IMG/VR virus record: IMGVR_UViG_3300031857_001373
Span: 1 to 24,026 of that record
Source: a virus
DNA: 24,026 nucleotides
Direction: 5' to 3' (one strand)
Below the pieces are notes generated by a model, which searched no databases, was not told where the DNA came from, and saw nothing but the letters and a program-made list of their open reading frames with translations. The position numbers and the translations under genes are program-made. Numbering within the stretch: position 1 is the stretch's first letter; each line of letters opens with the position of its first letter. Shown here one piece after another: positions 748 through 24,026 of the stretch.

Positions 748-1349
748 TTCCGTTTCATGAATACTTTTGGACGTTAAAATACAGATTCCCGGGATCAACT
801 GAATTCGACGGCGACAATTTCTGGAATCAACCATACGAATACATCATCGTATCGGTACAGGCAAGCGAAGAACTGTATCGTCGTAGCCTGCATGACCAAG
901 AAAGGCCTATTGCATTAATGATGATGCAAACAGCCGAGTCCAACAGGGACAGGAAGAAAAACAAAATCCCGTATTCGATTCAGGATTTCTGCCTTTATGG
1001 AGATCCAGAGGAGACCAAGGGACCGGCTGGCAGGTATGGTGCAGCGGCAATGAAACTGGTAGAGATGGGACTGATGCCATCGTGGGCATTGTTCGTCTAC
1101 AAGGAGCTGAAAGTAAATGCAGAAAAGGCAATGCCACCGGAACCATTAGCCCTGATTGGCGATTCTGTCGTGATCCTTGCGCCTTCTGTATCGGAGGGCT
1201 ACTGTACGGGCATGTTAATCGCCAACATGGACGCTTCCGACAGCGTTGTCGAAGTCAGGTCCCTATGCGGCAAATCACTAAGGGTTCGCGTGCCCAAGTT
1301 CAAGGAAGCAGTTTACGCGGCAGAAGACATATCGCTAGCAGTGAAATAG
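720..1349 (+). CDS. Tail assembly chaperone, T-like extension made by -1 frameshift
   Basis: This frame is open from 705 (after TGA 702-704) to TAG 1347-1349. Between 705 and 917 it has no ATG, GTG or TTG codon, yet it reads as a well-formed protein sequence (WIIPFHEYFWTLKYRFPG, then FDGDNFWNQPYEY). This argues that it is expressed as the extension of the upstream gene, join(169..720, 720..1349), a 393-residue GT-like fusion. A simple gene caller would give only 918-1349 (143 residues), cutting off the aromatic-rich part. By analogy with lambda gpGT, the extension should bind the tail tube protein while the G-like part holds the tape measure. Its last 37 bases overlap, tail to tail, the end of the HNH gene on the other strand. 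Confidence 0.65.
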   Translation, partial: ASTKEGGWIIPFHEYFWTLKYRFPGSTEFDGDNFWNQPYEYIIVSVQASEELYRRSLHDQERPIALMMMQTAESNRDRKKNKIPYSIQDFCLYGDPEETKGPAGRYGAAAMKLVEMGLMPSWALFVYKELKVNAEKAMPPEPLALIGDSVVILAPSVSEGYCTGMLIANMDASDSVVEVRSLCGKSLRVRVPKFKEAVYAAEDISLAVK

Positions 1350-1684
1350 TCATCTGTTTCAAGCGGAGCCATTGGTGGCACAACCATCCCTGACAGCAGC
1401 CAATTTTTTATTCTTAACTCATTTTCTATATTGTAAAATTGCTGTTCTTGGTACCACTTTAACCAGTCCTGGGAGGACCCTTTATCAAGATTGCAGCTAA
1501 CACATGCTGGAATCACATTACTTCTACGATCTTCACCTCCTCGACAGCGGGGTTTAACATGATCAATTGTCAGACTGTTGTCATCAATGGGTGGCTGGCC
1601 GCAGTATGCGCAACGATTAGACCAAGCTTCTTTTATTGAGCTACGCCAAATACGTCGCGCCTCCTTGCTTGTGAGGGCAGACAT
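1313..1684 (-). CDS. HNH endonuclease, probable free-standing homing nuclease
   Basis: This is the only gene on the - strand. From ATG at 1684 it encodes 123 residues with a clear zinc-bound HNH fold: CAYC (Cys25, Cys28), then TIDHVKPRCRGG carrying the Asp-His pair (41-42), Asn56, and CVSCNLDKG (Cys61, Cys64, Asn65). Such genes are common mobile passengers in phage genomes and nick or cut DNA near their insertion point. The frame stays open upstream, with an ATG at 1753 and a TTG at 1777. I prefer 1684 because MSALTSKEARRIWR is a typical HNH beginning, but the longer forms remain possible. The orientation, the convergent overlap with the chaperone gene and the unusually large gap on its 5' side support an insertion between chaperone and terminator genes. 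A packaging-linked HNH role is less likely here, because no terminase gene is adjacent. Confidence 0.85.
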   Translation of the reverse strand: MSALTSKEARRIWRSSIKEAWSNRCAYCGQPPIDDNSLTIDHVKPRCRGGEDRRSNVIPACVSCNLDKGSSQDWLKWYQEQQFYNIENELRIKNWLLSGMVVPPMAPLETDDYFTASDMSSAA

Positions 1685-1768
1685 GTTAAGTAAGTAATCA
1701 GAGGAGCGTTCATACGGTGGCCAAACTGTTAAGTCCGTGGCTCGAACAAGCATCCGATTACAGATTCT

Positions 1769-1833
1769 TTTGAACAATCACGGAAAGCGCAGATAACTGT
1801 AACCTAGACATAGTTACTATGCGATTGTTCGAA
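1769..1833. repeat. Nested inverted repeat in the HNH/terminator intergenic gap
   Basis: The left arm TTTGAACAATC (1769-1779) pairs with GATTGTTCGAA (1823-1833), 10 of 11 bases complementary. Inside lies a second inverted repeat, GTAAC (1799-1803) and GTTAC (1813-1817). The right arm also contains the palindrome GTTCGAAC (1827-1834). The structure sits in the 196-base gap between the divergent HNH start and the start at 1881. It has no T-run, so it is not an obvious intrinsic terminator. It could be an operator, an RNA structure or a trace of the HNH cassette's insertion. Confidence 0.45.
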
Positions 1834-7933: not shown

Positions 7934-10900
7934 GTGGCGTATCTTGTCAACCAAACAAGGGTATCCTCTCTTACTATTGGTGGTGTAGACTATACAGATA
8001 ATTTAATTTCATTTACAGTAACTGATTCTTCTGCAAATAAGAATGGTATTATTCAGACAGCCGGTTCCTTAATTCTTGGCGAGATCCCTAACGGCAACAG
8101 CCTAGGCGATTATAACCGCAATGCCTTCAAAAGGGGAACTATCATACTCCTTGATCTGGAGGATCCAGAGACCAGTGTGGTCACACGACACCCTAGGGGG
8201 TATCTGTATGTCATATCTGGCGGCTACAGTGCCGAGAGCGGGTCCCTAGAGCTTAGTATTGGTTGCAGGCTAACCCTGTCCGCCCTTACAGAAGAAGTAG
8301 ACGAAATATTACCACTTGTTCCGGTCCCGCTAGAACTGGAGCGGCAAGATTTTGGAAACTGCGCAGCGTCCTTTGCTTCTGCTGGGCAATGCCTCTATCA
8401 GGACAACCAAGGTGTTTTGCAAGTTGTAACTTTTTTTGATGGCGATGTAAATGATACGGCAGCGCCTGGCGAATGGACATCCGTCCTAGGCGTCACTGCA
8501 TTGACCGCATCACCAATGCTCGGCGGCAGCGCTATCCCTGATACATTGCTCCTATCCTTTCAGGTACCACAAGGAGCCATTGGATCAAATGAACTTGGGA
8601 AGATAGACGAAACTGTAACCGATTCCTATTATTTCTTAAATTACCCGACGACATTATTTAGGAGAATTACAACCGGACTATCTGCCGTAAGTGGCAGTAG
8701 TTCAAGTAGTACTGGGATCGGAGTAACTAGCGGTTGCGGAAACTCGCCTGGTGAGCCAGGGGACAATCCTGACCTTATCACCTGCAACGAAGGTTACAGA
8801 ACCGAGCAGGAGCCCTCGATACTGCCAGCTCAATCTCAGGAAATATCAAGGACTTATTACTCTGGCCCTGCATCCCAAGGCGAGAAAACCATAACGGAGA
8901 AATGGGGTCCCGCAGTTGAATTGAATGGTCAGTACTTCTCAGACCTTTTTGCCTATTGTCGATACACCTGGGCCACTCGTTGTCTTCCGAATGGAACTTG
9001 TGCCTTTGAAGGCATGGAACAAGTCCTGCAATCGTATAATGAATCTTATAATTATTACGGCCCCTCGGGGGAAGTTGTTCAAACTGTGCAAGACAGTTAT
9101 TCAAATATATTAAGTGCTGCCCAACCATTTGACTGGAGAGCTGGAGTCGTAGATGGTCTACCTCAAGAGTTTAGGCCAATTAACTATATCAATGGTACTA
9201 CGCAAAGTTATATCCGGCAAGGGAGTGGGCTTGGTTTGGTTTATAGAAACAAAGCTACGACATTAAAGGAAATAGAAACCCAAGATGGTTTTTACTATAC
9301 CAATGGCAACCTGATTTATTTATCAAAACGTGACTCAAATGGAGTATTAACAACTTCGAATTCCGTTGGCTTGCCAGCAATAATGGGTATAGCCGCAGGA
9401 CAGTACCCTGTTTGCGTTTGGCAATACAACGCATCGATTAAGGGACGTGAACTTGTATGCAACTATCCTGTTATATATATCTCCACGCAAGAGGGCAACG
9501 TTTGGCCTATTGAAGCCAGTATAAGCCAGTGGGGGCTGTATATTGTGGGCTACACCACGGTAGGAACGCAACCCTATATCGTAAGGAACGATTTCGACGA
9601 TTTACCAGACGGTGATGTTCTTTATATCAATGATGCTGTCGCAACCGTTGCCGTAACCTCGCCAAATGGAGTCTTCTTCAGAGATCAAAGAACTGTAACA
9701 GACTACCTGTATTCTGGAGATGGTAATATTCAGACGACTACAACCTACAGCTCAGTCGCCTCCAATAGTGTTGGAATCTACAGGTCTTCACTGGATGCGC
9801 TTAATGGAATTGTAACGGTTCAAAGGAGGACATCTAGGACGATTACTGCAAATCCCATAGCCCCAGACCGGATAAGTCCATCCAATAGTTCAACAGTTGA
9901 ACAATCGTCCGAATATCCGATTTTTACGTCAACATACCAAGAATCCGTAGACAGGGCTGGTCCTTATATATTGAGAGATGCAATACCCGTACCGCTACTA
10001 TTTGCTAACAAAGATACGTTGGCGGGCATAGTTAATACCTATAGTAATTATTTAATTAGATTCATAAAAGGAGATGCGCTTGGATATACGATTGCCGAAT
10101 CGTTAAGGCCCGAAATTATTGAAAACTGGCGCCCCGGAATGCCGTTCAGGTATTGCGACCAAGAAAAGAATAGAATCCTTGCGCTTCGAATGGATGGCTG
10201 CTCCTGGGGCGTAACAGCGACGGAGACTGGCGTCGTAACCAATGGTATCTGGATAGGCAATTCAGATGGCGCACTGGTCCTGTCGAGTAATCTTTCCGGT
10301 AATTCAACGCCAAGCCTAGACGGCGACCCGCCGACACCTCCTGTCGGCCCCGCAGCACCGCCATCTATAGCGAATGAAGTCTATGTAAGCTCTGGTCCAA
10401 TCAGCCTTGTTATTCAGGTGGACATTGGGACAAAGATTCTACTGCCGTTTGACGAATCTAGATCGATAATAAGTGTTATTGAACCATTGGAAGTTGATCT
10501 TTATACGACTTTCATGTGTTTCGTTTCCGGGTTGGTGGTAGCACCCGGAAATCTGCTTGGGACTACTTCTACTGGGTCCGTCCCGATCGACGCCAATGGA
10601 TCGCTGGTAACGGCGGGCGCAACTATTATAATTAGTGAGCTGTTCCCGAATTTCTTTACAGCTCCAATAGTCAGTGTTTCGGTGTCGATACCTAATACTA
10701 TTATTAGCGTGCCGCTACTGAACCCGACTGTTATCTCGGGCGCCTCGGTTTCGCCTCCTTCCGCGAGCATTGAAACTAACGGCTTGGCACCTATCCTGAC
10801 CGGCGCCGGAGCCGTTGTCGATCCGCTGCCCCTAGTAGCTACTCAGGTTGACGCCCCAACGCCAGGGGTTTCCATAGGTGATGTTGTATTCCTGCCGTAT

Positions 10901-11626
10901 CCGGCCAATACCGACCTTGTGCCGCTGGCACCTTCTTTCGTCGGCGGATGGCAAGATCCTTACTGGAGTAGTACTAACTTAATGCTGACTCTTGACACCA
11001 ATTTCACCGATAGCAGCCAGAAGGCAATCGCCACGAGCGTAATCGGCGCAAACGCTACAATATCTACGGTAACCAAGAGGTTTGGGGCGGGTTCAGTCTA
11101 CCTCAGTAATACCACTAATGCTTATTTCACTTACAGCGACCCTTCCGGACATCTGTCCCCCGGCCTTGGTGATTTCACGGCAGAGTTCTGGTGGTATCCA
11201 TTCGAAACCGAAACCACCCGTCTTTGGGCGAGCAGCACTGCTGGATGGCGCATTAGTCAAACCCTGTTCTCGGGCGTAGCCATTCCAGATCTTCTCTTGA
11301 ATGGCACTCTTTACTATCCTGGAACCAATACCGGTACAGCAACTGGAACTTTTACCTACACATTGCTAAGCTGGCACCACGTTGCCCTGACGCGAAACAG
11401 TGGTGTTTATAGACTTTTCCTTAATGGCACCCTGACTACTACCGTAACGAATCAAACTGGTACTAATCAGACGAGTTCGTGGAACCAGTTTGGAAGGGAA
11501 GGCGTTAGTACTACCAACAGCCCATATGGCTACATGGATGAATGTCGCTTTACCAAGGGAATTGCTAGATATACCAGCAACTTTACTCCACCCACTACTG
11601 CCTTCCCGAATCCGTTCCCACGGTAA
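7934..11626 (+). CDS. Tail tip hub protein with C-terminal LamG-like lectin domain
   Basis: 1,230 residues, GTG start at 7934, four bases after the previous stop. Residues 1-130 (LTIGGVDYTDNLISFTVTDS, GYLYVISGGYSAESGSLELS) have the look of a tail-hub N-terminal beta domain, followed by a long mostly beta region to about 790. A Pro-rich linker (DGDPPTPPVGPAAPP, about 797-810) leads to valine- and proline-rich repeats of beta type (about 815-1000). Residues 1010-1225 form a concanavalin-like LamG domain, with GDFTAEFWWYPF, SWHHVALTRNSG, YRLFLNGTL and MDECRFTKGIARYTSNFTPP. The same signature recurs in the two fibre genes downstream. The hub should close the tube tip, and the lectin domain probably binds a host glycan. 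Hub function is inferred from order and size; the LamG call is strong. Confidence 0.75.
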   Translation: MAYLVNQTRVSSLTIGGVDYTDNLISFTVTDSSANKNGIIQTAGSLILGEIPNGNSLGDYNRNAFKRGTIILLDLEDPETSVVTRHPRGYLYVISGGYSAESGSLELSIGCRLTLSALTEEVDEILPLVPVPLELERQDFGNCAASFASAGQCLYQDNQGVLQVVTFFDGDVNDTAAPGEWTSVLGVTALTASPMLGGSAIPDTLLLSFQVPQGAIGSNELGKIDETVTDSYYFLNYPTTLFRRITTGLSAVSGSSSSSTGIGVTSGCGNSPGEPGDNPDLITCNEGYRTEQEPSILPAQSQEISRTYYSGPASQGEKTITEKWGPAVELNGQYFSDLFAYCRYTWATRCLPNGTCAFEGMEQVLQSYNESYNYYGPSGEVVQTVQDSYSNILSAAQPFDWRAGVVDGLPQEFRPINYINGTTQSYIRQGSGLGLVYRNKATTLKEIETQDGFYYTNGNLIYLSKRDSNGVLTTSNSVGLPAIMGIAAGQYPVCVWQYNASIKGRELVCNYPVIYISTQEGNVWPIEASISQWGLYIVGYTTVGTQPYIVRNDFDDLPDGDVLYINDAVATVAVTSPNGVFFRDQRTVTDYLYSGDGNIQTTTTYSSVASNSVGIYRSSLDALNGIVTVQRRTSRTITANPIAPDRISPSNSSTVEQSSEYPIFTSTYQESVDRAGPYILRDAIPVPLLFANKDTLAGIVNTYSNYLIRFIKGDALGYTIAESLRPEIIENWRPGMPFRYCDQEKNRILALRMDGCSWGVTATETGVVTNGIWIGNSDGALVLSSNLSGNSTPSLDGDPPTPPVGPAAPPSIANEVYVSSGPISLVIQVDIGTKILLPFDESRSIISVIEPLEVDLYTTFMCFVSGLVVAPGNLLGTTSTGSVPIDANGSLVTAGATIIISELFPNFFTAPIVSVSVSIPNTIISVPLLNPTVISGASVSPPSASIETNGLAPILTGAGAVVDPLPLVATQVDAPTPGVSIGDVVFLPYPANTDLVPLAPSFVGGWQDPYWSSTNLMLTLDTNFTDSSQKAIATSVIGANATISTVTKRFGAGSVYLSNTTNAYFTYSDPSGHLSPGLGDFTAEFWWYPFETETTRLWASSTAGWRISQTLFSGVAIPDLLLNGTLYYPGTNTGTATGTFTYTLLSWHHVALTRNSGVYRLFLNGTLTTTVTNQTGTNQTSSWNQFGREGVSTTNSPYGYMDECRFTKGIARYTSNFTPPTTAFPNPFPR

Positions 11627-11662: not shown

Positions 11663-12088
11663 GTGGCACCATCTATCTCGCTGTATAACCATACTTCTAG
11701 GCTTTTTGCCAATGGTTCCAACGAGTCGAGTGATAACTATCGGGTGATGCTTTGCACCGCTGCAACATTTAACGCAACGGACGCAACCCTTGCCGGTATC
11801 ACGAAGACAGAAGTTGCATCTGGAACGGGATACACCTCGGGTGGCGGATTACTGGCCAACGTGACGGTGACCAGCAGCCTGAATGATGCCAAGTTTGATG
11901 CTGATGATGTCACCTGGACCGCCTCGGGTGGATCGATCATTGCATCATTCGGAATTCTTTACAATCAAACGGCTGGCGATCTACCTTTAGCATTTATCAA
12001 CTTTGATGGCGTGCAAACTGCGGGGGATGGGACACAGTTCAAGGTTATATGGAACTCAGGTGGAATCTTCACCTTTAACGTTGGCTAG
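11663..12088 (+). CDS. Small tail accessory protein (paralogue of 18960-19397)
   Basis: 141 residues, GTG start at 11663. It shares start, core and end with the protein at 18960-19397: ISLYNHTS against ISVYDHTI, WTASGGSI in both, and NSGGIFTFNVG against NANGIFRFNLT. The core DDVTWTASGGSI with a following YN-T-D-PL-FINFDG pattern is, as I recall it, common in small phage proteins encoded among tail fibres. It is strand-rich, has no cysteine beyond one near the N-terminus, and carries no signal peptide. A structural role at the tail tip or fibre base is likely but unproven. Confidence 0.7.
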   Translation: MAPSISLYNHTSRLFANGSNESSDNYRVMLCTAATFNATDATLAGITKTEVASGTGYTSGGGLLANVTVTSSLNDAKFDADDVTWTASGGSIIASFGILYNQTAGDLPLAFINFDGVQTAGDGTQFKVIWNSGGIFTFNVG

Positions 12089-12131: not shown

Positions 12132-12860
12132 ATGGCAATTTCGGCCAAGGTATCAAGCGCTGAATTGACCGCTCAGGTTACGAATCGCTTTGTCGACAAT
12201 ATCTTTGAAATTAGACTGATTAACGCCCCCGGTACTTCGTATACTCCGGGCGTCACGATTGACTCAAGTCTCTTGGGCCAAGAAGTGGTTTATGGCACCG
12301 GTGGTTATGTAAGGCAAACTTTTAAATTTGTATCGGCTGATGTTGCTGGCTATTCGGATGATGGCATTGGACTCGCGAGGAAGGCTGCAGTATTTACGCA
12401 CAATGGCTCGGCTACGCCTACGGTATTCTCTCATGCCGTGATGTGTCGCGGAGATGGTAACGTCTTGACGCTCAACCCAGTTTCTTCAGCACCTCCTTCT
12501 GGTGTGAATGGAACCTACACAAATGTTCCGACGATAACAACCGGCACAGGAAAAGGGCTAACAGTGAACTTAGTTGTTACTAATTCCGGCGCCTCTACTT
12601 CAGATTGGGCTGTCGCAGCTAACAACTTTGGATATGACTATACTGTTGGCGATACGATTAATATCACCGCAGCCACTCTAAATCAGGTTGGTGCAACCGT
12701 GGCGGGGGTTAACAATCTTGTGTTTTCCGTGGCAACAGCTACGAGTGGCGGTGGGCAAATTGTTGCAGTTGCACAAACCACCAGTACGATTAATCTTGGT
12801 GGAGGAAATCAGGCTGTTCTTTATTTTGACCTAAAACAATTCGGCTATTATTCTGTCTGA
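12132..12860 (+). CDS. Tail-tip accessory protein with an inserted beta-rich module
   Basis: 242 residues from ATG 12132; a TTG 15 bases upstream in frame is a weaker choice. The start (MAISAKVSSAELTAQVTNRF) and VVYGTGGYVRQTFKF recall proteins I associate with marine phage tail clusters. Residues about 120-200 look like a separate module (GTYTNVPTITTGTGKGLTVN, then GYDYTVGDTINI), a pattern also found in cyanophage fibre proteins. The frame then returns to the base protein (GGGNQAVLYFDLKQFGYYSV). A domain insertion into a loop would explain this. Its stop codon overlaps the next start (TGATG at 12858). Confidence 0.7.
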   Translation: MAISAKVSSAELTAQVTNRFVDNIFEIRLINAPGTSYTPGVTIDSSLLGQEVVYGTGGYVRQTFKFVSADVAGYSDDGIGLARKAAVFTHNGSATPTVFSHAVMCRGDGNVLTLNPVSSAPPSGVNGTYTNVPTITTGTGKGLTVNLVVTNSGASTSDWAVAANNFGYDYTVGDTINITAATLNQVGATVAGVNNLVFSVATATSGGGQIVAVAQTTSTINLGGGNQAVLYFDLKQFGYYSV

Positions 12861-13123
12861 TGGAAATGTTAGAAGCGCTACTGGAGGAGAATGCCGCCGC
12901 TAGGGTCGTGGAGATTGAGCGCAGGGAAACCGGACCGGCCATCAAGGGTGATTTCGAGGGAAGCGTGACCGGGACATGGGTAAAGCTCAATGAATTAGGC
13001 CTTGGGGTTGTGTCGTATAATCAAAAGGAATATATAACGAGACCGCTTGGGTTCATGTCCATAGCGGCTGGTCAAAAGATATTCCTGAGTTATGCGGCTG
13101 GCGTTTACTATTCTAGCTGGTAA
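12860..13123 (+). CDS. Small conserved-type tail cluster protein, unknown function
   Basis: 87 residues, with ATG 12860 sharing its A with the stop of the preceding gene, which suggests coupled translation. An acidic/basic helical N-terminus (LEALLEENAAARVVEIERRE) is followed by a beta-rich part, GVVSYNQKEYITRPLGFMSI, AGQKIFLSYAAGVYYSSW. The second half looks like a small barrel and resembles short proteins of phage fibre clusters. No catalytic or binding motif is visible. Confidence 0.7.
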   Translation: MEMLEALLEENAAARVVEIERRETGPAIKGDFEGSVTGTWVKLNELGLGVVSYNQKEYITRPLGFMSIAAGQKIFLSYAAGVYYSSW

Positions 13124-13125
13124 TT

Positions 13126-13338
13126 ATGGCGATCCAGCCTTCGTTTATTAGTTCGCAACCGATATCCGAGAACACGGATACTACTATCTCTCTCTTGAGC
13201 ACTAGGCCGACTGGCGATACGGTGATAAGCCCACCACTTAGCCCTGGGCTGCTTGTCGGTTTTTATAATGGATCACTGGATTCTGTAGAGCTTTACATCG
13301 TAAGTGGCGATGGAACAAAATATATCAAGGCTTTATAA
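13126..13338 (+). CDS. Very small tail cluster protein, unknown function
   Basis: 70 residues from ATG 13126, two bases after the previous stop, with its own stop overlapping the next start (TAATG at 13336). After a Ser/Thr-rich N-terminus, the part LLVGFYNGSLDSVELYIVSG ends in TKYIKAL. This short strand-turn-strand pattern is similar to the C-terminal parts of some fibre-associated proteins. The unbroken coupling with its neighbours is the best evidence that it is real. Confidence 0.65.
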   Translation: MAIQPSFISSQPISENTDTTISLLSTRPTGDTVISPPLSPGLLVGFYNGSLDSVELYIVSGDGTKYIKAL

Positions 13339-14225
13339 TGGTAATCGAAAATCCGATAATTTCAGCCTCTTCCATAGAGAGGACTAAGGCTAGGACGGTT
13401 GCCATTCCGATAGTATATAGCCTCCCGGTTACCGATCCCGTACTGGTGACCTCGTCGACTACGTCAGTTTTCACGGAAACTACAGTTATAAATTATGTTT
13501 TGGCTTCCGAAAATTTTCTCACTTGGACTGTTCCTTCTTCTGGTCAAATAGCTTTTTTTACATTTAGCGAGAATTCAGTTGCGTCGCCAATTGGCACGAT
13601 GACCGCAGATAGAGTGACCTCAAATCCCAACTATTACCCTCTTTATCTAAGAAAGTATTTCGGAGACCCAAATGGGCTGGGAAGGGTTACACCTCATACT
13701 TTTTCGGTTTACCTAAAGGTCCCTTCTGCAACTCTAAATGGCTTCAAGATATCGATGAAGACAAGCGATCTCTTTGCTGGCGAAACAATAATCAGCCAAT
13801 CTACCGTTAGTCTAACCACGTCATGGCAGCGATTTAGTATAACCGGAACCCCTCCGGATGAAAACAAGATCATGATTGAGATAGGCGGTGAGAATAGCTG
13901 GCCGCTAAATACGGCGGTAGATATGTGGGGAGCTCAACTGGAGGAGTCACCTACCATGGGCCCATATGTGTCTACCGAGAATGCTTCTCCAGCGCAGCCC
14001 GTCAGTCAAACTTTCACTGAATTTCAAGAAATTAGCTCAGCACCGGCGAGGGAGGGGCAGATAGTATTTTATGTAAATGGTAGCGTAGGTAGAACCTATG
14101 TAGCCGTGGATATTGATGGAGTAATTACATGGAAACCTTGTATTAGCATTACTGGGTATCTAGACCCTAACACAGGACTGCCGCCAGATTCCAACATTCT
14201 ATTATACTCTCCATCGTCAGGCTAA
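13338..14225 (+). CDS. Carbohydrate-binding jelly-roll tail protein
   Basis: 295 residues from ATG 13338. Residues about 55-213 look like a CBM4/9-type jelly roll as found in phage tail proteins: SENFLTWTV, MTADRVTSNP, HTFSVYLKVPS, TTSWQRFSITG and the closing DMWGAQLEESPTMGPYVST. A second small module follows at about 234-268 (APAREGQIVFYVNGSVGR, then ITWKPC), which recurs in both fibre genes downstream. The likely role is binding of a host surface polysaccharide, or trimer-tip attachment in a fibre. The module calls rest on recognised sequence pattern; the ligand is unknown. The stop overlaps the next start (TAATG at 14223). Confidence 0.7.
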   Translation: MVIENPIISASSIERTKARTVAIPIVYSLPVTDPVLVTSSTTSVFTETTVINYVLASENFLTWTVPSSGQIAFFTFSENSVASPIGTMTADRVTSNPNYYPLYLRKYFGDPNGLGRVTPHTFSVYLKVPSATLNGFKISMKTSDLFAGETIISQSTVSLTTSWQRFSITGTPPDENKIMIEIGGENSWPLNTAVDMWGAQLEESPTMGPYVSTENASPAQPVSQTFTEFQEISSAPAREGQIVFYVNGSVGRTYVAVDIDGVITWKPCISITGYLDPNTGLPPDSNILLYSPSSG

Positions 14226-15241
14226 TGAGTAGTCTACTTAACTTTTTTGAGCGAAATGACATCCAGCAGCAAAGGGAGAAAGCTGCGCAAGTATTTCTGG
14301 ATAAGGGGATCGTACTTGGAACTTTTGGCGGAACTAAGTGTTATAATAGCAATGATTGTGCCTCTGGTTGGTGGTGCAGAGACAATAAGTGCGTCAATCC
14401 GGCATCAAAGGAAACAGATGAAGGAGAAGGAGGGTGTGGCGTAGGGCCTGCCGGCAGTGGCGGTTGTGGTGGAAGTGGTGGTTGCGGCACTTCAACCCCG
14501 GGTACAGACTGCGGCATCGCTGCGGACTGCTGCGGAAGCAGGTGCTGCCGCTATACGGCCGTTACTGCTGGCTTTGCCGCCACAACCTCAGTATTTGTAC
14601 AGTGCTATTGCGGCGATTGCCCAGCGCTAGGGACCTGTACGAGCTTTTGCGATTCCTTTTACAAGAACGCTGGGAAAAACGCAGAGGGTTGCGATGACAA
14701 CACTAAGTGCGATGAATGTTCTTACTGTAATAATAACGGGGAATGCGTCATTCAAAGCGGCGGCCCATGCTGGTGCGACGAAACTCGAGATTGTCAACTC
14801 TGCCAAGATAATGGATCATGGACTGAAAATCCAATTTGCTGGCCGTGTAGAAATTTTACCAAATGTGGAGTCATAACTGGCGAGAGGTATTGCAGTCCCG
14901 GACTGAATGGCAGCCTTGCCCTGCTAGTATCAGTAAACGGTCGACTGATAGACGAACCATGCGAGGTGGACTGTGTATCGGATAATTGCACAACTCATTC
15001 CGTTACAGTATCCGGCGCTGGATCAACAGCGGTTTCTGGGTCATCGCTTTACCCTAGCTGCTGCCCCACATGCACTTGCACTAATACTGGGTTCATAACC
15101 GCTGGTGGTTCTACTACTTATCTAGTAGAGGAGTGTAACGTGGGAGGTCTACCAGATGCGTGCTGTAAAGTTGAATGCAATTGTCATTCTGAATGCGCAA
15201 GCGGTAAGTGCAACCCCGATGGAACGTGCTTTGGCGGTTAA
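14225..15241 (+). CDS. Cysteine-rich protein (45 Cys in 338 residues) of the tail fibre cluster
   Basis: 338 residues from ATG 14225. A helical, charged N-terminus without cysteine (SSLLNFFERNDIQQQREKAA, about 1-38) is followed by a domain in which more than one residue in seven is cysteine. A small unit with spacing C-x5-C-x5-C-x4-C appears near residue 39 (CYNSNDCASGWWCRDNKC) and a related one closes the protein (CNCHSECASGKCNPDGTC). A glycine-cysteine linker lies at about 76-94, and pairs such as DCCGSRCC and SCCPTCTC recur. No signal peptide is present. The pattern resembles secreted disulfide-rich repeat proteins more than single zinc fingers. Disulfide-stabilised adhesin and metal-loaded virion part are both possible. 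Operon position between lectin-type genes points to the tail tip. Confidence 0.8.
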   Translation: MSSLLNFFERNDIQQQREKAAQVFLDKGIVLGTFGGTKCYNSNDCASGWWCRDNKCVNPASKETDEGEGGCGVGPAGSGGCGGSGGCGTSTPGTDCGIAADCCGSRCCRYTAVTAGFAATTSVFVQCYCGDCPALGTCTSFCDSFYKNAGKNAEGCDDNTKCDECSYCNNNGECVIQSGGPCWCDETRDCQLCQDNGSWTENPICWPCRNFTKCGVITGERYCSPGLNGSLALLVSVNGRLIDEPCEVDCVSDNCTTHSVTVSGAGSTAVSGSSLYPSCCPTCTCTNTGFITAGGSTTYLVEECNVGGLPDACCKVECNCHSECASGKCNPDGTCFGG

Positions 15242-15287: not shown

Positions 15288-16769
15288 ATGGCTGTATTCC
15301 CGGAAAGAATTATATTAAAAAATGCGACGGACTCTGGTTCTTATATAACATCGGCTATTGCTCCAGGGGGCCTAGCTGCATGCGTACCCGGGGAGATAGT
15401 CATACAGAGGCTGAATGGATCGGTACGATTGTATACGCTTGACAGCACAAGTGTCCCCAGGCAGGTAACTACTGGACTGGTCAATGAAGACAAAGGATCC
15501 TTGACTGTTAGCAACTATGGAGATGGATCCTCTAGTTTTATATTAAATGCTGCAAGTGTTAATACGAATGAGCTTGCGGCTAATAGTGTTACTGATGCAA
15601 AAATACTGGGACCAATCAGTATCGCCAAAGGTGGAACCGGACAGACAACGGCCAATGCTGCGCTGAATGCTCTACTGCCATCACAGTCTGGGAATAGCGG
15701 GAAGAGCCTTCTGACCAATGGAACAAATACAAGCTGGGGGATTGTATCTTACTCAATAAATGATTTGAATGATGTTGAAACTATAACTGAAGCCGCGCCT
15801 GTCCCTTTGAACAATCAGTGTCTAAAGTGGGACTCCTCTGTAACCCAATGGAAGGTTCGTGAAGACATAACTACCGATCCGCCTATCAGACCGAATTCTC
15901 CCTGTCGGCTAGGGCAGATCGCATTTGATGAAGAGTATCTATACTGCTGCGTAGCCACAGATTTATGGAATAGAGCTCCCCTTAGTTATTGGAATTCGGC
16001 GGAAGTTTACCCAAGAGCGATTACGTCTTCTGTAAATACTTACAAGCCAGAAGAAATCGGACGACCCCCGGACCCCTATATCAGCTCTGTCAGTCTTCTC
16101 ATCCGAGGAGACGGAGTAGATAACGGCACGATATTTTCTGATGCAAGCACTAATAACCTTACTGTTAGCAGGCGCGGCACTGGCCCTGTTACCAAGACCG
16201 CGATTAAGAAATTTGGCACTGCTAGCGCTTATTTCGATGGATCTTATAGTAATGGCTTAACAGTAGCAGCAAATTCACTGTTTGCATTTGGAGCTGGTGA
16301 CTTCACAATTGAGGCATGGATGTATGTAATTAACACGTCAGTAGGTGCTGCGATAATAGGCCAATACGGCTTCACATTTAACCAATCGTATGATTGGTGG
16401 TTCCATATGGCGGATGGTGGTACTTTTCTACAAGGGCCCTACATTAATCTGGGCACCGGCATTACCAGCTCCGTCCAGTACTCTGGAGGATTGACTAACA
16501 TACCCAAGAATGCATGGAATCACGTAGCGGTATCAAGGAATGGAACCAATATGAGAATCTTTGTAAATGGTGTGCAGGCTGGGGCAACTCATAACGTTGG
16601 AACACTGTCTCTTTACCCTTCAGGCGGACCACTTGGTCTTGGTGAGCTAGGAGGAGGGGCTTACAGTTTCGGTGGCTATATGGATGAAATTAGGATAACG
16701 AAGGGGGTTGGAAGGTATACGTCTAATTTTGCGGTCCCGACCGAACCATTTAACAGCTTTGTTATTTAA
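15288..16769 (+). CDS. Tail fibre protein 1, with a C-terminal LamG domain
   Basis: 493 residues from ATG 15288. The N-terminal ~145 residues (CVPGEIVIQ, then SVTDAKILGPISIAKGGTGQ, TNGTNTSW) are of common phage fibre type and align along their length with the next gene. A small module at about 201-235 (PNSPCRLGQIAFDEEYLYCC, LWNRAPLSYW) matches a shared fibre insert. Residues about 264-490 are a LamG-like lectin domain: SVSLLIRGDG, GAGDFTIEAWMYV, NAWNHVAVSRNG, MRIFVNGVQAG, GYMDEIRITKGVGRYTSNF. It probably attaches by its N-terminus and binds a host glycan through the lectin. It ends exactly where the next gene begins. Confidence 0.85.
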   Translation: MAVFPERIILKNATDSGSYITSAIAPGGLAACVPGEIVIQRLNGSVRLYTLDSTSVPRQVTTGLVNEDKGSLTVSNYGDGSSSFILNAASVNTNELAANSVTDAKILGPISIAKGGTGQTTANAALNALLPSQSGNSGKSLLTNGTNTSWGIVSYSINDLNDVETITEAAPVPLNNQCLKWDSSVTQWKVREDITTDPPIRPNSPCRLGQIAFDEEYLYCCVATDLWNRAPLSYWNSAEVYPRAITSSVNTYKPEEIGRPPDPYISSVSLLIRGDGVDNGTIFSDASTNNLTVSRRGTGPVTKTAIKKFGTASAYFDGSYSNGLTVAANSLFAFGAGDFTIEAWMYVINTSVGAAIIGQYGFTFNQSYDWWFHMADGGTFLQGPYINLGTGITSSVQYSGGLTNIPKNAWNHVAVSRNGTNMRIFVNGVQAGATHNVGTLSLYPSGGPLGLGELGGGAYSFGGYMDEIRITKGVGRYTSNFAVPTEPFNSFVI

Positions 16770-18905
16770 ATGACAAAAGATAATATTGCGATAAAATACA
16801 CGACAGACTCCCTAGAAACGGTCATGTCAGACATCTCGGAGGGGCAGCTAGGGGCATGCCTGCCGGGCGAACTTGTACTATCCGCGCAGAGTAGCTCAGC
16901 CCGACTGGCTGCGGTGGACGCCAATGGTACCGGTGCGCGAGTCATGGGCGTTTTGTCCAATGGAAACAAGGGTTCCGTTACCGTATCTTCACTGGGAGAA
17001 GGTCCAACCAGTATACTGTTAAATGCTAATAGCGTTACTGAAAGTGTTCTTGCCAGCAACAGTGTAAGCAGTGAAAAAATTGCAACTCCTCTACTAATCA
17101 CAAAGGGCGGAACAGGGCAGAGCACTGAAAATGCTGCACTAAATGCTCTACTGCCGTTACAGACTAGTAACAATAATAGATTGCTAACCAGTAATGGAAC
17201 CAATACTTCTTGGGTTAGGGACACCCTGGGGATCGACCAGCTCAACGATGTCAATACTTCGAGCGCTACTAGATTCAAAGATCAAGTACTGAAGTGGGAC
17301 AGTTCAACCCTTCAATGGAGGCAAAACGAAAGTATCACTACTTTTAGCGATCAGTTGCTGACAAACCAAGCGCCCGGGAGAGAGGGGCAGATAGGCACTG
17401 GAGCGGAGTATTTTTATGTATGCCAAGGTACCAATAAATGGTCAAGAACTGCATTACAAACATGGAATGATGGCGCAATAATCAGGTCCCCGACAACTTC
17501 CGGTATTGCATATACCTATGAACCATTGGTTACATCGGGCGATATATATTATTCGAACGTCTCACTTTTGCTCCACATGGATGGAGCAAATGGCAGTACT
17601 ACGTTTACGGATAGCAGCCCAAATCCTGTCGTCGTGTCGCGGGGAGGGGGTGGTAATACTTCCATTCAAAGCACCCCCAGCAAGTTTGGCGGTGGCAGTT
17701 GTTACTTTGATGGCAATGGAGACTACCTTGGTGCCAGCATAAACAGCAGTCTCGATCTAATTGGATCTATTTTTACCATTGAGGCATGGCTGTATCCTCT
17801 TACTTATAAAGTAAACGGAATGCGTATTATCAGCGCCGGTGGTGGCCTTGTTGTCTGGAATAGCACTAACGGTATTCATTGGTTGATGCAGCTCGATGGC
17901 AGCGGGCGGCTAAACTTTCAGTATTGGACAGGGACGGCGTCTGCAGGTGCGACAACGACGGCAACCGTCCCACTTTCTTCCTGGGGGCATGTGGCGGCCT
18001 CCTTCAATGGCTCTACTCTGTTTTTGGCTGTGAATGGTGTTGTTCAGTCTTTTGCAGTAGCCAGCATCTCCAGGCCCTCGTCAAATCCTGCGGTACAAAT
18101 TGGCACGATTAACGACGAGATCGGGAATGCTACCTATGCCTATAATGGATACATGGATGAGGTCAGGATAACAAAAGGAGTCGCACGCTATACTTCAAAC
18201 TTTAGCGTACCTGCTGCAGCATTCCCTGAACGTGGTTATATATCAGATCCTTATTTCAATAACACTTCCTTGCTGTTACATGCTGATGGAAATAACGGAG
18301 ATACTTTGATCAAAGATTATAGCCCAAATGGCTTAAATGTTATAACGACTGGCATCGCCAGTATCAGCACAGCTCAAAGCAAATTTGGGGGCTCCTCTAT
18401 TTCCTTGCCTAGTACTACAAGTTTCGTAACAGCTCCTGTCACTGGTAGTCAGTATTCCTTCGGATCAGGCAACTTTACCATTGAATTTTTCGGATATTTT
18501 ACTCATGCTGCCAGTCAATACTCAAGATGGATTACATTCAGCGGAACAACAGGCGGCTATGGAGAACTGACCATCAGACAAGAAAGCAATAATTCATATG
18601 CCTTCTTTTACTATATAAATGGGGTACTGACTGGTCCGTTCGGAGGAGGCACGGTAATAAGAAACGCATGGACGCATATCGCACTTATTCGCAACGGCAA
18701 TGCCTGGGAGCTTTATGCAAACGGCAGTCTCCAAGTCGGGCGCTTTCTATCGGCAACACTCCCGTCGTTCAGTCAGGTTACCTTGGGCGGCTCTTCAAGT
18801 GAGCACGGAACAGGCTTCTACGATGAGGTTCGCATTACCAAAGGCGTTGCTCGCCACACGACTAACTTCACACCGCCAACTGCTCCATTCCCTAACTTCT
18901 TATAG
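16770..18905 (+). CDS. Tail fibre protein 2, with two tandem LamG domains
   Basis: 711 residues from ATG 16770, with no gap after fibre 1. The N-terminus repeats the fibre 1 plan (CLPGELVLS, GSVTVSSLGEGPTSILLNAN, ITKGGTGQSTENAALNALLP), as does the small module at about 200-232 (APGREGQIGTGAEYFYVC). Two LamG domains follow: about 261-487, with FTIEAWLYPL, SSWGHVAASFNG and YMDEVRITKGVARYTSNF; and about 491-708, with FTIEFFGYF, NAWTHIALIRNG and FYDEVRITKGVARHTTNF. Relative to fibre 1 a whole lectin domain has been added, probably by duplication. Two binding heads on one chain could raise avidity or widen host range. Confidence 0.85.
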   Translation: MTKDNIAIKYTTDSLETVMSDISEGQLGACLPGELVLSAQSSSARLAAVDANGTGARVMGVLSNGNKGSVTVSSLGEGPTSILLNANSVTESVLASNSVSSEKIATPLLITKGGTGQSTENAALNALLPLQTSNNNRLLTSNGTNTSWVRDTLGIDQLNDVNTSSATRFKDQVLKWDSSTLQWRQNESITTFSDQLLTNQAPGREGQIGTGAEYFYVCQGTNKWSRTALQTWNDGAIIRSPTTSGIAYTYEPLVTSGDIYYSNVSLLLHMDGANGSTTFTDSSPNPVVVSRGGGGNTSIQSTPSKFGGGSCYFDGNGDYLGASINSSLDLIGSIFTIEAWLYPLTYKVNGMRIISAGGGLVVWNSTNGIHWLMQLDGSGRLNFQYWTGTASAGATTTATVPLSSWGHVAASFNGSTLFLAVNGVVQSFAVASISRPSSNPAVQIGTINDEIGNATYAYNGYMDEVRITKGVARYTSNFSVPAAAFPERGYISDPYFNNTSLLLHADGNNGDTLIKDYSPNGLNVITTGIASISTAQSKFGGSSISLPSTTSFVTAPVTGSQYSFGSGNFTIEFFGYFTHAASQYSRWITFSGTTGGYGELTIRQESNNSYAFFYYINGVLTGPFGGGTVIRNAWTHIALIRNGNAWELYANGSLQVGRFLSATLPSFSQVTLGGSSSEHGTGFYDEVRITKGVARHTTNFTPPTAPFPNFL

Positions 18906-18959: not shown

Positions 18960-19397
18960 ATGGCCGTAACTATTAGTGTATATGACCATACCATTTCGAA
19001 GTTACTTGCTGGAACTTTTTCTACTAGCAACACTTATATAATAAATCTATACTCAGCATTCACCTTCGGCGCTGCTCACACCACGAAGGCTCAAGTCGAT
19101 GCCGCAGCTACTCAGCTACCCACTGCTTTTGGCTACACACAAGACGCATATGCATTGACAAATGTTACGGCAACCCAAGTTACTACAAACGATGCCATGT
19201 GGGATGCGGACAATGTCCTTTGGACAGCTTCTGGCGGATCCATATCGGCTACTCATGCAATGGTTTATAATGATACAGTAACAGATGATCCCCCGTTATT
19301 TGTCGTTAATTTTGGAGAAACCGTCACCGTACAAGATACACTTGTATTTCGAATAAATTGGAACGCAAATGGAATCTTTAGATTTAACTTAACCTAA
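18960..19397 (+). CDS. Small tail accessory protein (paralogue of 11663-12088)
   Basis: 145 residues from ATG 18960, 54 bases after fibre 2. It repeats the plan of the 11663-12088 protein: ISVYDHTISKLLAG at the start, DADNVLWTASGGSI in the core, then MVYNDTVTDDPPLFVVNFG and a final NWNANGIFRFNLT. The middle parts differ, so the duplication is not recent. Its place at the far side of the fibre genes, with its paralogue at the near side, means the pair brackets the receptor-binding block. Function is not shown by the sequence; a structural or assembly role with fibres is likely. Confidence 0.72.
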   Translation: MAVTISVYDHTISKLLAGTFSTSNTYIINLYSAFTFGAAHTTKAQVDAAATQLPTAFGYTQDAYALTNVTATQVTTNDAMWDADNVLWTASGGSISATHAMVYNDTVTDDPPLFVVNFGETVTVQDTLVFRINWNANGIFRFNLT

Positions 19398-19428: not shown

Positions 19429-19803
19429 GTGATAAAGACTATCGAAGACTTGAGGAGCGGGGGAGCGCTGCCCACTGGCCCTTGTTCTGCTTGGCCAAAA
19501 TCAAGGAACATAGCGGCCCCTTCGATGGCGCAGAATTTCAAACCCAAGATCGAGCACGATACAAAAGTAAAACCCAGCATTGCGGCAATGGCGCAAGGTT
19601 TTCTCCGGACAGCAGGCCAAGCCGTGACTCAAGGAAAGGTCTCCGAGGAGATAAGGAATCAGCGATACGAAGTGTGCAAGACTTGTCCACATTTTATAGA
19701 AGATTCAAAAAGATGCTCAGAGTGTGGATGCTTCATGGAAGCAAAGACCTGGGTTGCTGGAGATCCAAAAAATCTCTGCCCTAAGAACAAGTGGGTTAAG
19801 TAA
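19429..19803 (+). CDS. Zinc-ribbon-like small phage protein
   Basis: 124 residues, GTG start at 19429. The first 70 residues are low in features. The C-terminal 45 hold six cysteines in a tight pattern: YEVCKTCPHFI (Cys83, Cys86), KRCSECGCFMEAK (Cys96, Cys99, Cys101) and LCPKNKW (Cys117). This C-x2-C...C-x2-C-G-C plan with a closing CP-x2-KW is a familiar small metal-binding protein found near structural genes of many tailed phages. It most likely binds one zinc ion. Its function is unknown to me. Its stop overlaps the start of the next cysteine-rich gene (TAATG at 19801), so the two are probably made together. Confidence 0.75.
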   Translation: MIKTIEDLRSGGALPTGPCSAWPKSRNIAAPSMAQNFKPKIEHDTKVKPSIAAMAQGFLRTAGQAVTQGKVSEEIRNQRYEVCKTCPHFIEDSKRCSECGCFMEAKTWVAGDPKNLCPKNKWVK

Positions 19804-20579
19804 TGGGAATATGCCCCCCTGATATGAATTCTTGCGTTCCCAAATGCAAGCAATGTGGTGGCGTGAATGATGGAAAGGTTTACAATTGTGAAAGTCCGTG
19901 TTCCTGTTATAGCAGTAATAATATAAATCTATATTCATTCAATGGCTACGATTGCGTAAAGGAGGGCAGTTGTGGGCCAATGACGGGCACATTCTGCGCA
20001 GGAACAATAGGCGCGGTAATTGGGTTTCGCACAGAATGCACAAATACTGGGCCTGGTAAAACGACCCCGGGAATATTTGACACCACGCCTCAGGTAAAGG
20101 CAATTCTCGGCACGCAAAACGCGTCACCCTTTAGCACTTTGTCTTACCTTTATCATGAGCTTGGTATAACCAGCAATAGCGACCCCGATATCCCGGTCGG
20201 ATACGGCTGGATTACTTACACTCCCTTTCGAGTTCCAACAACTGCTACTGACGAAGGAAGCTTTGTATTTAGTCCATTTGGCGGTGACGGAATTCGTGCT
20301 GCCTTCTTCTTTAGGTTACAGGGTGGAGGCATAACTTCCACTGGTCCCAGTACCCTTTACTGGTTCAATACTTCACAGGCTAGCTGTGTACTGCCTTGCT
20401 GCGGCTGCACTCCATGTACGATTAGTAGTGGCTGTCCTGGGCCCTTCCAGTGTTGCCCAGTACCGGCGTCGAGTACTGAGCTATACGGATCAGGTCAATG
20501 GGAGTTAAAGGAGATCGTAGCTGCCGTTAGGTGGATCAATGGCGCAAATGCTGCAACCTCGGTTTGGACAAGGCTGTAA
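19803..20579 (+). CDS. Second cysteine-rich protein, unknown function
   Basis: 258 residues from ATG 19803, overlapping the previous stop. Cysteines are confined to two ends: eleven in residues 1-79 (MGICPPDMNSCVPKCKQC, PCSC) and eight in about 195-218 (CVLPCCGCTPC, CPGPFQCC). Between them lies a cysteine-free beta-rich domain (YGWITYTPFRVP, GIRAAFFFRLQGGG) that could be a jelly-roll. The end (WELKEIVAAVRWINGANAAT) looks helical. There is no signal peptide. Together with the 14225-15241 gene it makes cysteine-rich proteins a recurring theme in this cluster. A disulfide- or metal-stabilised virion part is possible; I do not recognise the family. Confidence 0.7.
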   Translation: MGICPPDMNSCVPKCKQCGGVNDGKVYNCESPCSCYSSNNINLYSFNGYDCVKEGSCGPMTGTFCAGTIGAVIGFRTECTNTGPGKTTPGIFDTTPQVKAILGTQNASPFSTLSYLYHELGITSNSDPDIPVGYGWITYTPFRVPTTATDEGSFVFSPFGGDGIRAAFFFRLQGGGITSTGPSTLYWFNTSQASCVLPCCGCTPCTISSGCPGPFQCCPVPASSTELYGSGQWELKEIVAAVRWINGANAATSVWTRL

Positions 20580-22522: not shown

Positions 22523-22867
22523 GTGACATCATTGCCAGTGGTCCCCGGAAGGTACGACATTACCATATATCAACGGGCCACTTTTAAGCAGCAGGTTACG
22601 CTGCCGATTGACCTGACTGGCCATCAAGTATTTGCCCAAATCTGGGACAAGAAAAGACGCAACAAAGTATTAGATATCGAAATCGAGATGCTCGATGCTG
22701 CGGCAGGCGAATTCAATATGATTGTTGACTGGCCGGAAACCACTCCGCTGAAGAAGGCTGCAGAGTGGGACCTGATGGTTGACTATGCCAGTGGCGACAG
22801 GGATTATTGGCTGGAAGGTCTGGTTACGATTGACCCCGGCCTCACCGCTCCTGAGGATGCAGACTGA
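22523..22867 (+). CDS. Small beta-rich virion protein, possible base of the collagen-like fibre
   Basis: 114 residues, GTG start at 22523, three bases after the motif GTAAACTATT. The pattern [35 protein letters not shown], then [14 protein letters not shown] and a closing [15 protein letters not shown] recalls small immunoglobulin-like or baseplate-N-domain-like proteins that often precede phage fibre genes. Its stop overlaps the start of the collagen-like gene (TGATG at 22865), which suggests the two proteins act together, for example as anchor and fibre on the head. Role is inference. Confidence 0.55.
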
Positions 22868-24026
22868 TGCCAGATCTTAACGTACAAATCGTTACGAACG
22901 TTGCTGCCGTAGAACTTGGGGCTATCCCTATTGTTGAAACGGTAGAACTTGGGGTCATCGGTGCGCAGGGGCCGCAAGGCGCAACTGGTGTCCAGGGTGC
23001 TACCGGCGCTCTGGGCTCCACTGGCGCAACTGGTGCTACTGGTACGGGCGGTGTGCTGGGTCTGTATGGCAACTTTATCGACACCACTGACCAGCCACTG
23101 ATCAGTACGTCGGCAGCTCAGCCGATCACGATTAATACGACTCTAGAGGGCAGTGGAGTTACCGTTGCCTCTAATAGCCGTATTACTTTTTCATCGGGTG
23201 GAACATATAAACTGCTTGCGTCTGTACAGGTTACAAACAGTGGCGCACAGACTTCGGAGGTTGACTTCTTTATTAAGAAAAATGGCTCAACTGTACCGGA
23301 TAGCAATACAAGGATTGATATACAGCAACGTAAATCAATAAGCTCACCATATCACGCATGCTTTACATTTGAATTCCAAGCAACCGTCGCCGCCAATGAT
23401 TACCTAGAACTTTGGTGGTTTGCTGATCATATCGATATATCAGTTGATACTATCGCGGGTGACGGCATTCATCCGCAGGCTCCGAGCGTTATCTTAAACG
23501 TTGCCCAGGTGATGTACACCCAAATAGGTCCCAGTGGTGCCACGGGTGCAGTCGGTGCAACGGGAGCGGTCGGCGTGACTGGTGCTACTGGTGTAGCTGG
23601 CACTATTGGTGTAGATGGCAGCACTGGCCCCACTGGCCCGCAGGGTGCTACTGGCGTCGAGGGCCCTACTGGCGCGACCGGGCCGCTCCCTTACAACTAC
23701 AGGGGAGAGTGGAGCGGCGCCACTGTTTACTATCTATATGATGCGGTTACCTTTGAGGGGTCCTTGTATTGGCTGCCCAATACTGGGGGCTGGACCATCG
23801 GCGGACCGCCTCCGAATTTTAACTGGCAGCTCCTTGTATCTGCTGGTGCAACTGGCGCAGGCGTGACTGGCGCTACTGGTGTCGAGGGACCAACCGGCCC
23901 TGAGGGTGCAACAGGCGCTGGCGTTACCGGCGCTACTGGAGTTGAAGGACCTACGGGTGCAACTGGCGAGACAGGTGCTACCGGCCCCGAAGGTGCTACT
24001 GGCGTTGCGGGTCCTACTGGCGCCAC
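22867..24026 (+). CDS. Collagen-like fibre protein with C1q/TNF-like and chitin-binding-like domains (partial)
   Basis: The frame is open from ATG 22867 to the end of the window, 386 whole codons. Residues 1-32 hold a duplicated VELGxI unit. Then come three collagen-like Gly-x-y runs (33-61, 221-273, and 327 onward, mostly Gly-Ala-Thr). Between runs one and two lies a C1q/TNF-like jelly roll (about 64-220, [24 protein letters not shown]). Between runs two and three is a CBM5/12-like module (about 277-325, [25 protein letters not shown]). Collagen-like runs trimerise, so this should be a trimeric fibre displaying sugar-binding heads. Its place behind the capsid gene points to a head fibre; a tail fibre cannot be excluded. 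Confidence 0.85.
23845..23964 (+). repeat. 60-base imperfect tandem repeat in the collagen-like gene
   Basis: Two copies of a 20-residue unit, [20 protein letters not shown] and a close variant ending in TGAT, start at 23845 and 23905. The DNA copies differ mainly at third codon positions (GTC/GTT, GAG/GAA), so the protein repeat is kept while the DNA has drifted. Such repeats can change length by recombination. Confidence 0.7.

Follow-up and report, generated by a model that had tools for sequence, protein, structure and literature searches.

A conserved cysteine-rich protein in the tail gene cluster of S-CBS2-like cyanosiphoviruses, proposed as a disulfide-stapled tail-tip adhesin

The window, a stretch of 24,026 nucleotides that forms positions 1 to 24,026 of the IMG/VR virus record IMGVR_UViG_3300031857_001373, carries a gene for a Cys-rich protein within its tail gene cluster (Table 1). 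The first-pass annotation of this DNA had singled out the extreme Cys content of the product, and this was borne out by the counts: Cys makes up 13.3% of its residues, with 2 His, versus 61 Cys in 7134 residues (0.86%) for the other 22 genes taken from the window; the tape measure (1343 aa) and the major tail protein lack Cys altogether. The gene was also described as lying just before the fibres, and two LamG fibre genes indeed follow directly downstream. Its stop/start overlap with the preceding gene is present as well, as 1 nt in the sequence TAATG; this overlap is not conserved, and gaps of 17-30 nt were found in most relatives where it was measurable. The upstream product had been called carbohydrate-binding, which is plausible from its matches to the GTA/phage head-spike fibre domain NF048003 (E 4.7e-17) and to a PHROG tail protein, but no Pfam CBM matched it; its counterparts are about 104-119 aa long in several relatives.

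Two further features attributed to the Cys-rich protein did not hold. The unit C-x5-C-x5-C-x4-C, described as repeated, occurs as a single exact copy in the window protein, where shuffling gives an expectation of 0.08 (p ~0.08), and a looser four-Cys pattern also occurs once; the unit is repeated only in some relatives, such as L021, which has three copies. CC pairs, which had also been pointed out, are no commoner than chance, with 4 observed versus 6 expected from shuffling.

Table 1. Genes of the tail region around the Cys-rich gene and parts of its product, with positions in the window.
Feature	Position	Strand	Basis
Conserved pair of small genes of the tail region (87 and 70 aa), marking the slot	12860..13338	+	
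Upstream gene, 295 aa, head-spike-fibre (GTA_spike_fiber) domain at residues 48-216	13338..14225	+	
Cys-rich tail protein, 338 aa, 45 Cys	14225..15241	+	ORF and composition; positional counterparts in 20 related loci
Conserved helix at the N-terminus, without Cys (residues 2-27; AAxxFLxTG motif); candidate for docking	14228..14305	+	AlphaFold2; alignment
Four-Cys unit A, C-x5-C-x5-C-x4-C, residues 39-56, family-invariant	14339..14392	+	
Variable linker rich in Gly/Ser, with additional Cys, residues 61-100	14405..14524	+	Alignment; pLDDT <50 at residues 62-99
Conserved Cys core, residues 127-223	14603..14893	+	Invariant Cys columns; residues 141-180 with pLDDT 75-78
Unit B CDECSYCNNNGEC, C-x2-C-x2-C-x5-C, residues 162-174, within the Cys core		+	
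C-terminal Cys module, residues 318-335	15176..15229	+	Degenerate version of a unit, CNCHNDCPSCQLCGADGKC, seen in relatives
Pair of fibre genes with LamG domains (493 and 711 aa), downstream	15288..18905	+	Pfam Laminin_G_3; PHROG baseplate/virion structural families

A tblastn search of phage records identified homologues in the Synechococcus siphophages S-CBS2, S-CRES1 and S-CRES3 (E 2e-5 to 3e-14), and S-CRES2 was also matched by the relative L019; the phage records matched did not include P-SS2, the other well-known marine cyanosiphovirus. The cultured homologues, S-CBS2 gp029 (ADF42385.1), S-CRES1 gp85 and S-CRES3 gp92, share the gene slot and the Cys framework of the window protein, and all are annotated as 'hypothetical protein', in line with the earlier statement that no function had been described. 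They differ in length: at 500-539 aa they have extra modules and a C-terminal domain, whereas the window protein is a short form that ends after the C-terminal Cys module. A single-sequence scan of viral contigs returned no relatives. Relatives were gathered only by means of alignments and the neighbouring 87-aa gene, yielding 20 distinct members, including that of the window, plus a divergent one, L020. The window protein had no match in Pfam, PHROG, NCBIfam or PADLOC, and the family profile had none in the PDB by sequence. Two pattern scans of ~85,000 prokaryote genomes revealed no cellular or prophage relative at the sensitivity of such scans, leaving the earlier suggestion of a mimic of a host surface protein without support; an alignment of 15 members was too divergent to serve the pattern search.

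The 20 aligned members are 321-659 aa long and contain 41-67 Cys (9.6-13.5%), the lowest share being that of L021 (63 Cys in 659 aa with the start taken at 10787). The Gly, Cys and Ser composition of the window ORF looks low-complexity, as might be expected of a chance or non-coding open reading frame or a frame artefact, but such a reading is already refuted by conservation: homologues are 30-44% identical in the alignment, and 25 of the 27 columns that are invariant across 15 members are Cys. In addition, L011 and L014 share 42 of 42 Cys at an overall identity of 69%. Together, the invariant columns and this complete retention show that the Cys residues of the window protein are under real constraint. 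Its invariant framework comprises Cys 39, 45, 51 and 56 and the core at residues 127-223.

The members share one order of parts, in which a Cys-free N-terminus is followed by a four-Cys unit, a Gly/Ser linker, the Cys core and a C-terminal Cys module. Many members add a variable C-terminal domain, which consists mostly of beta strands in the L031 model; the alignment showed that this domain of the long members is absent from the window protein and from L006, L010, L011, L014 and L018. The AlphaFold2 models of the window protein and L031 are of low confidence (pLDDT 58 and 62), and only local secondary structure was taken from them, namely an N-terminal helix and short two-strand modules. The helix, which is kept in most members, has a pLDDT of ~66 over residues 11-30, and a central segment of the Cys core is among the better modelled parts. 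Foldseek searches of both models against the PDB gave nothing significant, and their only significant match in BFVD was F4YCL0 (500 aa), an entry whose length makes it likely to be S-CBS2 gp029 itself. The positional counterpart L020 (7322-11503) lies outside the alignment and, at 1393 aa, is far longer than the other members found. Cys enrichment in L020 is confined to the N-terminal part and a short C-terminal module, and between the Cys-rich core and that module stand six VCBS repeats (E 1.7e-74) together with cadherin-like/Ig domains. Repeats of the VCBS type are characteristic of extracellular adhesins; none is present in the window protein, which in this differs from VCBS/cadherin-repeat adhesins.

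The genes of the window are collinear with those of each of the 20 loci compared, and the major capsid protein is 72-73% identical to those of S-CBS2 and S-CRES3, indicating that the window is a fragment of an S-CBS2-like cyanosiphovirus. A Cys-rich counterpart occupies the same slot in 20 of 20 related loci, downstream of the tail-tip genes and ahead of the LamG-type fibres, and wherever both flanks were covered it lies between the 70-aa/spike gene and the fibres. The genes around the fibres vary across loci, and the slot of the Cys-rich gene does not.

The pattern of Cys change across the family bears on whether these residues form disulfides or bind metal. In the 20-member alignment, variable Cys columns fall into matched pairs (524/546, 551/592 and 648/703, r=1; 587/608, r=0.9), and columns 648 and 703 changed together in 6 of 6 inferred events. 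When the 19 variable columns were simulated on the tree, 0.03 pairs were expected and no more than one arose in 500 runs, versus the four observed, three of which are each supported by one or two evolutionary events in an alignment whose method favours matching Cys to Cys. In the clade of L003, L006, L010 and L027, Cys 107 and Cys 132 were lost together; Cys 103 was also lost, and a nearby Cys was gained in three of the four members, resembling a swap of partners. Four-Cys units were inserted whole in L005, L017 and L021. Substitutions at majority-Cys positions include a single His, His accounts for 0.7% of residues, and HxH motifs are absent from 19 of 20 members. Judged from the sequences, the paired gain and loss, the rarity of Cys-to-His change and the insertion of whole units suggest a disulfide signature and speak against a metal-loaded part; Cys changes in pairs with few His and HxH fit intramolecular disulfides and not tetrahedral metal sites or HxH fibres. 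The parity of Cys number was also considered as a test of disulfide bonding and proved uninformative, odd totals being common.

We propose that the product of the Cys-rich gene is part of the virion, in the tail tip or fibre region of S-CBS2-like cyanosiphoviruses, as an exposed, disulfide-stapled arm or adhesin that would be made reduced and oxidised after lysis, and we assign this reading a probability of roughly 0.58. In its favour, the genes that directly follow in S-CBS2 carry structural annotations. The Cys-free N-terminal helix would dock the protein to the tail tip, and the remainder would be a string of small modules, stapled by disulfides and poor in regular secondary structure, that serves as a stiff adhesive arm or spacer resistant to proteases. 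In many relatives, the arm may end in a variable, probably receptor-binding domain, which the short window member lacks. No signal peptide-like N-terminus was evident on inspection by eye, so the protein would be made reduced in the cytoplasm, and its disulfides would most likely close in oxidising water after lysis. Presence in the virion, docking through the N-terminus, the timing of oxidation and contact with a host surface or receptor are points that we infer. A disulfide-rich adhesin maturing after lysis had been among the suggestions of the first-pass annotation; of these, it is the one favoured by the paired and unit-wise Cys changes, the lack of an evident signal peptide and the VCBS-bearing relative. 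A glutaredoxin-like gene lies upstream in S-CRES1 and none is annotated in the parts of the S-CBS2 record viewed, and a linked redox helper gene was accordingly dropped as a candidate.

An alternative reading, raised at first pass for iron or zinc, is a tail part loaded with zinc, iron or copper thiolates and folded around metal in the cytoplasm, in the manner of a zinc knuckle, a metallothionein or a 'Trojan/Ferrojan horse'. The 4-9 C-x2-C pairs per member would suit it, as would cytoplasmic synthesis, which is better matched to zinc than to disulfides, and a DUF6171 Cys protein is encoded nearby (19429-19803). However, the scarcity of His noted above, including at replaced Cys positions, and the near absence of HxH stand against metal, Cys residues were lost in twos rather than as whole four-ligand sites, and no zinc or metallothionein family of Pfam matched; we therefore disfavour this reading and regard it as improbable. 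HxH motifs are the proposed iron ligands of phage fibres, as in the tail fibres of T4 (gp37) and of Alteromonas phage R22Y, proposed metal-loaded tail parts with paired His (PMC11705849), whereas the Cys-rich family is nearly free of both His and HxH.

Disulfides could also serve stability only, if the protein were a non-adhesive cement whose intermolecular bonds cross-link tip proteins and fibres after lysis. An odd Cys total, found in several members including the window protein, requires that at least one Cys be free or intermolecular, so that at least one is left partnerless within the chain, and the fixed position among tip genes would also suit a cement. Partners would nevertheless be few, since most neighbouring products contain 0-5 Cys and the tube proteins none, and the paired covariation falls within the Cys-rich protein itself; an exposed adhesin accounts better for the variable C-terminal domains and the VCBS repeats, and we consider a cement unlikely. 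A protein outside the virion, such as a chaperone or a lysis-released or host-acting factor that merely lies in the tail operon, would agree with the S-CBS2 record, in which gp029 is annotated 'hypothetical' and gp030-032 just downstream 'structural', but sits poorly with a slot that stays invariant within the tail module of 20 loci even as the fibre-flanking genes vary, and with a size of up to 1393 aa with adhesin repeats. We regard it as very improbable.

Returning to the disulfide-stapled arm or adhesin, its position and adhesin-like architecture match those of tail fibres and tip proteins already known. Modular proteins dense in disulfides are well known in the extracellular matrices of animals, but not in phage tails, and in bacteria the oxidation of such proteins normally takes place outside the cytoplasm. 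Eukaryotic extracellular disulfide modules of the EGF-like, EB and Dickkopf types resemble the family in their short four-Cys units, inter-Cys Gly and little secondary structure; Pfam gave no match to any of these modules, no test gave a match in Cys spacing, and no secretion route is evident here. Only one of 15 members, L021, matches DUF7107 (PF23416), along a single four-Cys unit and 24 of 48 positions, with E 4.6e-4 and a score of 20.9 bits that falls short of the curated cut-off of 24.6; the window protein does not match DUF7107. A more specific possibility, which we put forward tentatively and hold to be doubtful, is an adhesin of EGF-like disulfide modules built without a secretory pathway, in which oxidation at lysis would make the tail tip competent only outside the cell. 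No Cys-rich cyanophage tail protein was found in open papers, which cover part of the literature, and a tail part that combines dozens of disulfides with the lack of a secretion signal seems to be undescribed in that same part. If the proposal is correct, a cytoplasm-made phage family with 41-67 Cys in its aligned members would represent another route to extracellular-type folding, would provide a redox handle on when cyanophage tails turn infectious and would constitute an uncharacterised candidate determinant of host range for Synechococcus viruses.

Several other genes of the window were recorded. LamG domains are present in three of its proteins, one being the 1230-aa tip protein at 7934-11626 (+), which has a C-terminal LamG domain at residues 1061-1206 and a counterpart of 756 aa in S-CBS2. 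Another protein rich in Cys (258 aa, 19 Cys, 7.4%) is encoded at 19803-20579 (+), adjoining the DUF6171 gene; the whole protein had no match among phage records, a stretch of ~33 residues is conserved in S-CBS2, L010, L018 and L027, and similar Cys-rich ORFs occur in L003 and L021. The 141- and 145-aa proteins encoded at 11663-12088 and 18960-19397 (+), the first of which matches phrog_644 (unknown function), match the same places in L011 and L014 and are therefore probably duplicates flanking the fibre region. At 1313-1777 (-), a 154-aa ORF contains an HNH-like Cys motif, and the corresponding position in S-CBS2, S-CRES1 and S-CRES3 is taken by annotated HNH endonucleases. Downstream of the major capsid gene, at 22867-24024 (+), lies a gene for a protein of collagen-like G-x-y repeats, and one gene in the structural region of S-CBS2 is annotated as collagen triple helix repeat.
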